NCBI GenBank assembly: GCA_029263125.1
Contig: JAJCYD010000027.1
Span: 1 to 64,000, forward strand
Reading direction: 5' to 3'
Source: Solirubrobacteraceae bacterium
Lineage (GTDB): Bacteria; Actinomycetota; Thermoleophilia; Solirubrobacterales; Solirubrobacteraceae
Length of the DNA: 64,000 bases
Shown one piece after another: positions 3,659 through 21,281 of the stretch. The stretch's first letter is position 1, and every line of letters begins with the position of its first letter. The translations under genes and the position numbers were made by a program. The notes beneath the pieces are model-generated. The model did not search any database. It worked only from the letters and a program-made list of their open reading frames with translations, and was not told the origin of the DNA.

Positions 3659-3790
3659 CGTCTCGGTGATCGCCAGCCGCGGATGCGGCAGTTATGCATC
3701 CAGGTGATGCATAACCGCCGGATCGATGATCAAGCGGTATCGAGCCGTCACTTGTGCACGGGTGAGCCGCGAGATGGATGGCCGCATTTC
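3640..3790. repeat. Copy of the dispersed TGCAT palindromic repeat, with an extra half site
   Basis: The core at 3691-3715 is a perfect inverted repeat, GTTATGCATC, five bases, GATGCATAAC. A half site (GTGCATAAC) sits at 3648-3656 and a related TTGTGCAC box near 3752. The flanking bases after the core (CGCCGGATCGATGATCA) match the copy near 34.6 kb in order and spacing. It lies between two decayed genes. Confidence 0.7.
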
Positions 3791-15177: not shown

Positions 15178-15485
15178 TCCGTTCTTGCACTACGGTCTCG
15201 AGCCAGTGAGAGGTCCAGGGCTCCGGTCGAGTGGTCGAGTGGTCGAGTTGTGCGTGAAGCCACGGGCGAGCGGCCGCCGCTGCGGCATCTTCGCTTCATC
15301 GCGCTGCTCGGCATGCGATGGCCTGCAGCGGGCAGCGCTGACCGCCGAGGGCGTCGCCTTGACGGGGTCGACGGGACCGCGGCCTCAGCGGATCTGCCTG
15401 CTGCGCTGCAAGAACCCAACGTCGTTGCCAGCACGTCTGGGCGCGTTCTGCACGACAGACGTGCATAACCCGCCCAAGCCCTGCC
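15178..15485. other. Gene-free region containing one palindromic repeat
   Basis: About 300 bases without a convincing gene. Its right part holds a copy of the dispersed TGCAT palindrome (15445-15469). The left part contains a short direct duplication (GAGTGGTCGAGTGGTCGAG, near 15230). No RNA gene was found. Confidence 0.6.
15420..15478 (-). repeat. Copy of the dispersed TGCAT palindromic repeat
   Basis: The core at 15445-15469 is GTTCTGCACG, five bases, CGTGCATAAC, with 9 of 10 arm positions complementary. On the minus strand it is followed by CGCGCCCAGACGTGCTGG, like the tail of the copies near 19.1 kb. Confidence 0.65.
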
Positions 15486-18302: not shown

Positions 18303-18890
18303 CTATGACTCCGGGCTGACGTCCCGGGGCGGCAGGAGGTCCGCGACCTCGACCGTCAACGGCAGGCGCATGGCGGTGACGGTCTCCGTGTCAGTTGCCA
18401 CCTCGATGTGGTCATAGCGGCCACCGACGGGGTCGCGGTGGATGACAAGCCGGCGGCCGCTGAGATCGAGCACCCAGTACTCCGGGATGGCTGCTTCCGC
18501 GTAGATCTCGGCCTTGCGTCCGAGGTCGATGCGGCGGGACGTCACGCTGACCTCGATGACCAGCAGCGCTTCTGGGTGGGCGGTGGCGTCCCAGCTGGTT
18601 GCCGGCACGACGGCGAGATCGGGTTCGGGCTGGCTGATCGGGCTGACGACGTTCAAAGGGCATTGCGGGCTGACCTCGAGACCGGCTGCGGCCGCGATCG
18701 GGGCGAGCAGCGTGGTCAGCCGGCAGATCGCCACCGTGTGGTGCCAGCCCTGCGGGCTCATCTCGACCAGGACCCCGTCGAGCAGCTCGATGTGATCGTC
18801 CTCGCCGAGGATCTCCGCATTGACCATCGCATCGACATCCTCGACGGTGAGCGGATGCACCGGGAGCGAGGGGTCGACGGAGACGGCCAT
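18303..18890 (-). CDS. Uma2-family putative endonuclease-like protein
   Basis: The product is 195 aa. The pattern of the family is complete: LTVEDVDAMVNAEILGEDD, HIELLDGVLVEMSPQGWHH, then QPEPDLAVVP, LLVIEVSVTS, RKAEIYAEAAIPEYWVLDL. These give the P-D, E-x-S and K elements of a PD-(D/E)XK fold. It is a paralogue of the gene at 4230-4751 and likewise single, with no obvious partner. The function of Uma2 proteins is not settled. Confidence 0.85.
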   Translation of the reverse strand: MAVSVDPSLPVHPLTVEDVDAMVNAEILGEDDHIELLDGVLVEMSPQGWHHTVAICRLTTLLAPIAAAAGLEVSPQCPLNVVSPISQPEPDLAVVPATSWDATAHPEALLVIEVSVTSRRIDLGRKAEIYAEAAIPEYWVLDLSGRRLVIHRDPVGGRYDHIEVATDTETVTAMRLPLTVEVADLLPPRDVSPES

Positions 18891-19313
18891 GCGGCCGATC
18901 GTACTCCCGACGGCTGCCTCCGACCAGGCGTTGATGGCTCACTCACCGGCCGGCGTCGATCTGTGCGAACCCATGACCGCAGCGTCACGCCCAAGGTGTC
19001 ACAGAACAACACGCGAACGTCACGAATCGGCGCGAGCCAACAGCAATCGTCTGGTCAGTCGGCGCATGGGATGGGTGCACTTATCCGCCCAGATCGGCTG
19101 GGGTGGTGGGGTGATGTGTGCGCGTGGGCGGGTTCTGCATGTCGTGGATGCCGCTTGCGCCCAGGTCGGCTGGGTTGCCGGGGCGAGGCCTGCATCTGGG
19201 CGGGTCTTGCATGACGTTGATGCCAAACCCGCCCAGGCTCCGCGGCCGGCGGATCGCCACCGCCTGATCGACGCGGCCGGCGGCGAAGGCGCCGATGGCG
19301 GCGGCGGGATTGC
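18891..19313. other. Long gene-free region with tandem degenerate repeats
   Basis: No gene is convincing here. The part from about 19065 to 19240 has three related blocks, each with a GCATG...ATG palindrome-like piece followed by CGCCCAG and GGCTGG. Two of them carry the 9-7-9 palindrome spacing. The rest (18891-19060) shows nothing recognisable. Confidence 0.6.
19065..19240 (+). repeat. Tandem copies of the dispersed TGCAT palindromic repeat
   Basis: Copy one: GTTCTGCAT (19132-19140), seven bases, ATGCCGCTT. Copy two: GTCTTGCAT (19204-19212), seven bases, ATGCCAAAC. A weaker block at 19068-19105 shares the CGCCCAGATCGGCTGG tail. These are more degenerate than the copies at 3.7 and 15.4 kb. 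Confidence 0.55.
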
Positions 19314-19360
19314 CGCTGTCCTGTTCTGTGGTCGTCCTGTGACCACAGGGCAGGACAGCG
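19314..19360. promoter_or_regulatory. Long near-perfect palindrome directly upstream of uvrC
   Basis: Outer arms CGCTGTCCTG and CAGGACAGCG (10 bp) and inner arms CTGTGGTC and GACCACAG (8 bp) are both perfect. They are separated by a two-base mismatch on each side, with a 7-base centre. It ends eight bases before the TATCCT hexamer, so it covers the expected -35 region. Confidence 0.6.
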
Positions 19361-19382
19361 CCCGATCTATCCTCGATCGTGC

Positions 19383-21281
19383 ATGGCGACCACCCCCGAA
19401 TCCACGCGCGACAGCCGCCTCGCCGAGCAGCGCCGCCACCTTCCCGACGGCCCCGGCGTTTACCTGTTCCGAGACGACAAGGGCGTCGTCATCTACGTCG
19501 GCAAGGCGATCTCGATCCGCAAGCGCGTCGCCGGCCACTTCACCAACGCGCGAGGCGGCGGGGCCACGCGCGGGGCGGTCGAGATGGTCAGCCGGATCCA
19601 TCAGATCGAGTTCCTCCTGGTGGCCTCCGAAGCCGAGGCGCTGCTCACCGAGAACACGTTCATCAAGGAGTACAAGCCGCGCTTCAACGTCCGCCTGCGC
19701 GACGACAAGTCCTATCCCTTCCTCGCCATCTCGCTCGACGAGGAGTTCCCACGCGTCTACTTCACGCGCGAGCGCCATCGCAAGGACCGCGCCTACTTCG
19801 GGCCCTACTCCAACGCCAAGAAGGTCCGCGGCACGCTTGACCTGCTGCAGAAGGTCTTCGCGTTTCGCTCCTGCCCCGCCACCGAGCCGGGACGGCGCAG
19901 CGGCTCGCCGTGCCTGGACTTCTACATCAAGCGCTGCGGCGCGCCGTGCGTCGGCTACCAATCACAGCAGGAGTACCGCCAGGCGATCGACGGCGTCATC
20001 GACTTCCTCTCCGGCCGCTACCGCCAGATCGAGCACGACCTCGAGCTGCGGATGAAGGCTGCGAGCGCCGCCGAGGAATTCGAGCAGGCCGCACTGGAGC
20101 GCAACCGCCTCAAAGCGGTCAAGAGCCTGCTCGAGCGCCAGCGCGTGGCCAACGAGTCAGTCGGCACCCTCGACGCGATCGCCATCGCCACCGACGGCAC
20201 GGACGCCAACGCGCAGGTCTTCCAGATCCGCGACGGCGTGCTGTCCGATCGTCAGTCCTTCTATCTCGCAAACGAGACCGGCCGCGAGCGCGGCGAGGTC
20301 GCCGTCGAGTTCATCCTGCAGTACTACGACGCGACGATGGCGATCCCGGCGCAGGTCATCGTCCAGCTCGACGTCCCGGACACGGCCGCGCTCGGCGAGG
20401 CGCTGGCGACCCGGCGCGGATCGCGCGTCGAGGTCAGAGCGGCGGAGCGCGGGGACAAGCGGCGCATCCTCGAGCTCGCCGAGCGCAACGCGAAGCTCGC
20501 CCTGGACCAGGAGCGCCTGCGCGACGAGCGCCGCCGCCAGCAGCGTGTCGAGGCGCTGGATGGCCTGCAGTCGGCGCTGGGCATGGACGCGCTGCCGCTG
20601 CGCATCGAGTGCTTTGACATCTCCAACCTCATGGGCACCAACACCGTCGCGTCGATGGTCGTCTTCGAGGCCGGTGCCCCGAAGAAGGCCGACTACCGCC
20701 GCTTCACCATCCGCTCGACGGCCGAGGGCGTGCCCGACGACGTCGCCGCGATGGCGGAGGTGCTCGGGCGGCGGCTGGCTCGCTGGGAGTCCGAGCAGGA
20801 TCTCAGCCCCAACGACCCCAAGCGCAATGAGTCCTTCGCCACGCTGCCGGGCCTGATCGTCATCGACGGCGGCCCCGGCCAGCTGTCGGCCGGCATCAAC
20901 GCGCTGCAGGGCTTCATCGACAGGGGCGTCACGGTCGTCAGCCTCGCCAAGCGCGTCGAGGAGATCTTCCAGCCCGGGCGCCGATCGCCGCTGCTGCTGG
21001 CTCACGACACCCCCGAGCTGCAGCTCCTGCAACGGGTGCGCGACGAGGCGCACCGCTTCGCGATCACCCATCACCGCGTCCGGCGCGACCGCGAGATGAC
21101 CGCGTCGGCATTGGACGGCCTGCCCGGAGTCGGGCCCAAGCGCAAGCGCGCGCTGCTCAAGCACTTCGGCTCGCCCGACAGCGTGCTCGCGGCGTCGCGC
21201 GAGGCGCTGGAAGCGGTGTCGGGAATGCCCTCGAAGGTCGCGCGCGACGTGTACTCATATCTGAATCGCACATCCGGTTGA
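19383..21281 (+). CDS. uvrC: UvrABC excinuclease subunit C
   Basis: The product is 632 aa, a typical length. The N-terminal GIY-YIG nuclease reads GPGVYLFRDD, VVIYVGKAISIRKRV and LLTENTFIKEY. A Cys-rich patch (CPATEPG, CLDFYIKRCGAPC) follows, then the UVR motif, the RNase H-like nuclease (ECFDISNLMGTN, VIDGGPGQL) and the C-terminal HhH pair (DGLPGVGPKRKRALLKHFG, VSGMPSKVA). It makes both incisions in nucleotide excision repair with UvrA and UvrB. TATCCT at 19368-19373 lies nine bases before the ATG, so the mRNA is nearly leaderless. Confidence 0.97.
   Translation: MATTPESTRDSRLAEQRRHLPDGPGVYLFRDDKGVVIYVGKAISIRKRVAGHFTNARGGGATRGAVEMVSRIHQIEFLLVASEAEALLTENTFIKEYKPRFNVRLRDDKSYPFLAISLDEEFPRVYFTRERHRKDRAYFGPYSNAKKVRGTLDLLQKVFAFRSCPATEPGRRSGSPCLDFYIKRCGAPCVGYQSQQEYRQAIDGVIDFLSGRYRQIEHDLELRMKAASAAEEFEQAALERNRLKAVKSLLERQRVANESVGTLDAIAIATDGTDANAQVFQIRDGVLSDRQSFYLANETGRERGEVAVEFILQYYDATMAIPAQVIVQLDVPDTAALGEALATRRGSRVEVRAAERGDKRRILELAERNAKLALDQERLRDERRRQQRVEALDGLQSALGMDALPLRIECFDISNLMGTNTVASMVVFEAGAPKKADYRRFTIRSTAEGVPDDVAAMAEVLGRRLARWESEQDLSPNDPKRNESFATLPGLIVIDGGPGQLSAGINALQGFIDRGVTVVSLAKRVEEIFQPGRRSPLLLAHDTPELQLLQRVRDEAHRFAITHHRVRRDREMTASALDGLPGVGPKRKRALLKHFGSPDSVLAASREALEAVSGMPSKVARDVYSYLNRTSG

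Follow-up and report, generated by a model that had tools for sequence, protein, structure and literature searches.

A palindrome in front of uvrC in a Solirubrobacteraceae bacterium is probably a solo copy of a dispersed repeat derived from the start site of an AbiEi-nuclease gene

The gene uvrC of a Solirubrobacteraceae bacterium is preceded by a long palindrome, and the question raised by this locus is whether the palindrome serves uvrC or stands there for another reason. Around it, the window, which is the whole 64,000-nucleotide stretch of DNA that was analysed, contains the following features.

19313..19361 (19314-19360 in the preliminary description), no strand: palindrome of the GTCCTG family, 49 nt, probably a solo copy of the start-site palindrome of the AbiEi-nuclease gene on contig C24 of the source genome (score 21, 0 of 300 shuffles as good)
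19368..19373, plus strand: TATCCT, -10-like motif of uvrC with a putative promoter role; TAT[CG]CT is kept in 6 of 6 genus mates
19383..21281, plus strand: uvrC coding region, with ATG at 19383; mRNA probably leaderless
18303..18890, minus strand: Uma2-family gene (putative restriction endonuclease fold), divergent neighbour; Pfam PF05685, E 4e-27

Direct reading of the letters, CGCTGTCCTG TT CTGTGGTC - GTCCTGT - GACCACAG GG CAGGACAGCG, confirmed the 47-base near-perfect palindrome reported in the preliminary description, with two 20-nt arms (19314-19333 and 19341-19360) that are 90% complementary and separated by a spacer of 7 nt. As the two-base interruption of the arms is T.G at both positions, a single strand folds into one long hairpin. 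Folding of 101 nt around the palindrome gave -59.5 kcal/mol (z -5.3), equalled by none of 200 shuffles. The palindrome ends seven bases before TATCCT, one fewer than had been given. When strict symmetry alone was scored it was the best palindrome of the window, with 18 of 22 positions symmetric, yet the same value was reached by 9 of 100 dinucleotide-shuffled versions of the complete window, and the earlier judgement that it is too symmetric for chance is thus suggestive, not decisive, on symmetry alone. The decisive evidence against chance is recurrence elsewhere in the genome, where near-identical 45-nt copies were found (E 2.7e-10). A chance palindrome, for which the equally symmetric shuffled windows could be cited, is refuted by this dispersed family and is hardly conceivable.

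We compared the region between uvrC and the divergent Uma2-family gene, in which the palindrome sits, with that of related bacteria. TAT[CG]CTCG lies a few bases 5' of the uvrC start codon in 6 of 6 genus mates searched, while the palindrome is absent upstream of uvrC in all six; it is also absent from the 200 nt inspected in 12 further named relatives, and a thirteenth, L072, has the same uvrC upstream sequence as the genus mate G002. As the genus mates keep the -10-like motif without the palindrome, this comparison indicates that the palindrome is not part of the uvrC promoter, to which it had been assigned. The proximity of the -10-like box to the start codon suggests that the uvrC mRNA is leaderless. 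Since the copy occupies the expected -35 region and spares the conserved -10 motif, an effect on uvrC expression is possible, and the palindrome was probably inserted in a single lineage, with a neutral or mild regulatory effect. A LexA site or other damage operator of uvrC was considered and rejected, as neither the 6 genus mates nor the 12 further relatives have the palindrome there, and a unique uvrC operator is ruled out by the dispersed family. The preliminary description had named absence before uvrC in close relatives, together with uniqueness to this genome, as the outcome that would speak against it; the absence was observed, whereas the family proved not to be unique to the source genome.

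A search of the genome with the exact pattern proposed earlier found it to be unique, but looser searches revealed further copies: BLASTN with the uvrC palindrome found 4 further places in the source genome (E<=4.5e-4), and a covariance model built from 15 copies gave 16 matches there on both strands, representing at least eight places. Across the order Solirubrobacterales, to which named relatives of its uvrC assign the source genome, the model had matches in 42 of 232 genomes; at most 25 candidates were scored per genome, so that copy numbers per genome are lower bounds. Genus mates had 0-2 matches versus the 16 of the source genome. In six genomes 74 copies were read, 68 of which lie outside called genes. 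According to a home-made and crude codon-usage gene caller, 30 of the 74 have convergent neighbours, 30 tandem and 8 divergent ones, and 6 overlap a called gene; five of the eight divergent copies belong to the source genome, where they make up 5 of 8 copies, and 30 of the 66 copies of the other five genomes lie between convergent genes. In the gap between thiE and thiO the source genome has a copy, and the syntenic genus mates G001 and G002 have a shorter intergenic region without one. No target-site duplication was defined for the palindrome copies. Apart from a tRNA, no Rfam family was found in the window at gathering scores, nor was any found at E<=5 in eight repeat loci.

Consensus and pairing profiles were derived from 70 of the 74 copies, those of exactly 49 nt. 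The stem GTCCTG...CAGGAC is almost invariant, and around it the copies follow a sub-consensus particular to each genome, with paired variation at several other stem positions; within one genome it is the sequence of the copies that is conserved, not the stem alone. The solo copies pair at offsets 2-23 from the dyad and fall to background level at 24. Paired changes of this kind need no RNA role, as the DNA site of a protein dimer would explain them. Some copies occur in groups: loci L160, L162, L163 and L166 of G056 are tandem arrays of the GTCCTG repeat with a spacing of 71-73 nt, and loci L199, L205 and L207 of G225 contain pairs, direct or inverted, 141 nt apart, the spacer sequence being partly shared.

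The owner of the palindrome family is a gene for a protein of about 300 aa that combines an AbiEi antitoxin/repressor module with a Vsr/homing-endonuclease-like nuclease module. In the source genome it is G000:C24:71183-72061, which is adjoined by the C24 copy of the palindrome; in G011 and G225 the AbiEi-nuclease gene is bracketed by two direct copies of the palindrome, and in G006 by two direct copies of a different palindrome. AbiEi_4 (PF13338) scored above the cut-off in three of four proteins examined, the N-terminal ~180 aa match PADLOC AbiEi models (E 1.8e-21), and the nuclease part of all four has a REase_MTES_1575 (PF18741) or DUF559 domain. Domains of the MTES_1575 type have been described as Vsr-like nucleases (PMC3710099). 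Sequence search found no solved homologues of the protein. The C24 protein has 304 aa, and E241 and H248 are among its invariant residues. A structure model of the C24 protein (mean pLDDT 87) matches the AbiEi fold of 6y8q and, more weakly, the catalytic domain of the homing endonuclease I-Bth0305I (3r3p; Foldseek E 2.6e-3, TM 0.80 normalised by 3r3p); the match to 1cw0 is weaker (Foldseek E 0.3). Many of these bacteria have several genes per genome that combine AbiEi with DUF559 or MTES_1575.

The palindrome has a fixed place at these genes. In 26 of 29 genes of the clade concerned (group A), an in-frame start codon stands exactly 27 nt before the domain anchor, at the dyad position, and the palindrome is centred on the first base of that codon. 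With this centre, which was set by scanning offsets, at least 14 of 23 pairs were formed at the start codon in 24 of the 29 genes versus 21 of 230 control windows, and 21 of the 24 have an identical palindrome centre. Group A was not blind, as its genes were found partly through the repeats (G000, G011, G225, G228 and G229). Other AbiEi-nuclease genes of the order, whose palindromes are unrelated in sequence, passed in 30 of 42 cases versus 48 of 333 controls, and 27 of these 30 centres are in codon phase; group B, composed of family-search hits, weaker clade-search matches and own-order genes, was mostly blind to the repeats. The regions fetched from the locus list that also supplied the own-order genes were a hand-picked 40. 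In the rest of the phylum there was no clear signal (7 of 30 versus 16 of 240 controls; rank test p 0.69). The pairing profile of the clade genes is like that of the solos, with weak pairing at offsets 8-13, and in most clade genes the palindrome is preceded by GGGG(G)GCGA, which may be a -35 element.

Of the 71 genes in groups A and B, 67 had sufficient sequence and length for a search of the gene end, and 11 of these 67 have a second direct copy there whose score exceeds the 99.9th percentile of 4422 mismatched pairs; this copy often lies over the stop codon. For the C24 gene of the source genome the 3' copy scored 14, which is below the 99th percentile and not significant. At loci L404, L405 and L406 of G014 a palindrome lies over the stop codon of the AbiEi-nuclease gene, and its match to the start palindrome is about as good in inverted as in direct orientation, or better.

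AbiEi-nuclease genes thus have paired inverted repeats of about 23 bp at their own promoter region, with the dyad on the start codon and pairing to offset 23. In the type IV toxin-antitoxin system of S. agalactiae, AbiEi is described as binding a 49-bp site over the transcription start, made of two inverted repeats of 23 bp with 3 bp between them (PMC7319586), and the 47-49 bp of the palindromes equal this operator size of 23+3+23 bp. The N-terminal part of the present protein is likewise AbiEi-like; the differences are that AbiEi is fused here to a nuclease, that the copies are dispersed, and that the putative operator lies on the start codon. We hold an operator role of the palindrome with moderate confidence. 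The earlier suggestion of an operator for an unknown damage regulator is therefore apt as to kind, the uvrC palindrome apparently copying the one at the start site of a regulator-nuclease gene of AbiEi type in the same genome and having the size of the published AbiEi operator. It is not supported as to a damage regulator of uvrC, since the palindrome is absent there in all six genus mates.

To what extent do the solo copies belong to the gene of their own genome? Against the score of 21 for the C24 gene palindrome, the uvrC palindrome scored 6-11.5 with those of three other AbiEi genes of the source genome. Among ten genomes, the solos ranked the palindrome of their own gene 1st of 29 in five (G000, G011, G116, G225 and G060), 2nd in G229 and G054 and 4th in G227, while in G212 and G211 the solos failed to match the gene sampled from their genome (ranks 16 and 19 of 29); G227, G211 and G060 were represented by a single solo each, copies bracketing genes and the copy of the own gene were left out, and G056, with a broken gene alone, was unranked. 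The clade gene is present in 14 of 18 repeat-rich genomes versus 7 of 214 others (p 3e-14), in a table with counts read by hand, related genomes that are not independent and thresholds set after seeing the data (a best E<=1e-6 for the repeat and at least 190 bits for the protein, with a partial gene in G060 counted as well). Repeat-rich G002, G078, G082 and G215, three of which are 54-72% complete, had no clade gene above threshold, and at least three genomes with a clade gene (G052, G053 and G057) had no GTCCTG repeat match. Taken together, these comparisons are strong sequence evidence for a dispersed family and for its link to the AbiEi-nuclease start site.

The repeats of the window are not restricted to the GTCCTG family. 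A second solo family with the core TGGGCGGG...CCCGCCCA lies upstream of uvrC, and a third, GAGTGGCG...CGCCACTC, of the same size as the GTCCTG palindrome, was found in the thiE/thiO gap of the genus mate G006.

19121..19168, no strand: palindrome P1, second solo family, part of a 72-bp direct repeat; match to the L267 start palindrome equalled by 1 of 300 shuffles
19193..19240, no strand: palindrome P2, second solo family; match to the L267 start palindrome with a score of 15, equalled by 0 of 300 shuffles
15433..15482, no strand: further, weaker member of the second solo family; match to the L267 start palindrome equalled by 7 of 300 shuffles
L224 2179-2229 and L252-L262 (G006): third solo family; AbiEi-nuclease gene bracketed by two copies

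L267 (G000:C52) is another AbiEi-nuclease gene of the source genome, of the AbiEi-DUF559 type, with palindromes at L267 2604-2653 and 2677-2725. P1 and P2, the two copies that make up the 72-bp direct repeat, match the L267 start palindrome and not that of C24, so the repeat-rich DNA upstream of uvrC mentioned in the preliminary description is probably of the same AbiEi-nuclease palindrome kind. The third family is dispersed in G006 only, where 12 of 14 further places examined are palindromic and two look like chance matches in coding DNA. A palindrome at window positions 3679-3728, with 17 of 22 symmetric positions, resembles P1 and P2 (0 of 300 shuffles as good); its similarity to the L267 start palindrome is not significant.

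We consider it probable that the uvrC palindrome is a solo copy of a dispersed, genome-specific repeat derived from the operator or start site of a gene for an AbiEi-type protein with a Vsr/EDxHD homing-endonuclease-like nuclease. The sequence comparisons behind this reading are that the palindrome spans the start codon with its dyad on the first base, that some genes have a second copy at the 3' end, that solos tend to match the gene of their own genome best, and that across the order the repeat is found together with the gene clade; that the nuclease mobilises the repeat is inferred. The AbiEi module would bind the palindrome as a dimer and autorepress, and the nuclease module would cut DNA at or near the palindrome. 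Repair or recombination would then place new copies of the palindrome between genes, either by itself or together with the gene, and there the solos would remain as repeats, mostly in gaps between genes. The gene-palindrome pair would in this way behave like a REP-RAYT system with an unrelated enzyme. More tentatively, and with somewhat less than even confidence, we propose that Solirubrobacterales harbour a class of selfish elements. Here the gene for an AbiEi repressor joined to a nuclease of homing type would begin exactly on its own operator's dyad, would often have its end within another copy, and would spread copies of the operator through the genome. The operator would be promoter switch and mobile unit in one, and each gene lineage would have its own. 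With an operator sequence for each lineage, several such families could coexist in one genome, as do two in the window.

Other explanations of the repeats were weighed against this origin from an AbiEi-nuclease start site. A transposase or other element that escaped detection might move REP-like repeats, in which case the AbiEi-nuclease genes would have done no more than capture a palindrome as start site, and the ~72 nt tandem arrays and the inverted or direct pairs about 141 nt apart do resemble REP dimers and clusters. We consider this unlikely, as the Y1 transposase (PF01797) was found in 0 of 11 genomes tested, unrelated palindromes, each with its own AbiEi-nuclease gene, occupy the identical start-codon position, and two of these palindromes, GTCCTG and GAGTGGCG of G006, have solo families of their own. 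Quite unlikely, in our estimate, is a genuine regulon, in which an AbiEi-type protein would regulate uvrC and other neighbours through fixed, selected operators: the palindrome is operator-like and most of the source-genome copies stand between divergent genes, where promoters are, but its absence before uvrC in every genus mate and from thiE/thiO in G001 and G002 argues against selection at these sites, and at the 30 of 66 convergent-gene copies of the other genomes there is no promoter to act on.

A transcription terminator or RNA-stabilising hairpin common to many genes would account for the very stable hairpin and for the many copies between convergent and tandem genes (30 of 74 each). We regard it as very improbable, since the uvrC copy lacks a T-run and sits between divergent genes, as do seven others of the 74, conservation within a genome concerns sequence rather than the stem alone, and the palindrome is also centred on start codons. 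A terminator that insulates uvrC, as had been considered earlier, does not describe a property shared by the family, 5 of 8 source-genome copies lying between divergent genes according to the crude gene caller.

The repeats are like the REP/RAYT systems (REPtrons, REPINs; PMC3733652) in being short multicopy palindromes that are mostly intergenic, single, paired or arrayed, and genome-specific, with a dedicated gene bracketed by copies. They differ in length, 47-49 bp versus 20-40 in REPs, and in their partner, an AbiEi-nuclease with the palindrome centred on its start codon. The 11 genomes that lacked a Y1/HUH (RAYT-type) transposase were searched alongside control genomes, 5 of 14 of which were positive, and the per-genome consensus contains no fixed unpaired GTAG or CGTC tag. 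CGTC-tagged REPs are likewise palindromic repeats without a known transposase, but have stems of 8-9 bp and unpaired tags and are reported from five phyla; PMC3733652 reports them without a dedicated enzyme, and a word search of its text gave no Actinobacteria. The EDxHD/Vsr-like I-Bth0305I (3r3p) resembles the present protein in the predicted C-terminal fold and in the mobile-gene lifestyle suspected here, and differs in that the latter has an AbiEi DNA-binding part and a gene bracketed by palindromes, not one interrupting an intron or host gene.

How REP-like palindromes come to lack a transposase is a known puzzle, and the partner proposed here is a repressor-nuclease, not a transposase. 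In the open PMC literature, which misses most subscription papers and preprints, no description of such a palindrome/repressor-nuclease system was found. The scattered copies of a nuclease gene's start site hint that soil bacteria may harbour a type of small mobile DNA not yet described. A possible role is thereby suggested for AbiEi genes with DUF559 or MTES_1575 domains, and a route for selfish operators into host promoters. If the selfish-element reading is true, stray copies would bring uvrC, thiE/thiO and thrC within reach of a selfish repressor. At thiO, a conserved stretch with a GGGCTGAGA core precedes the gene in this genus, just 3' of the repeat (L153 at about 2600-2720, and L221, L222 and L224); we take this core to be typical of TPP riboswitches.
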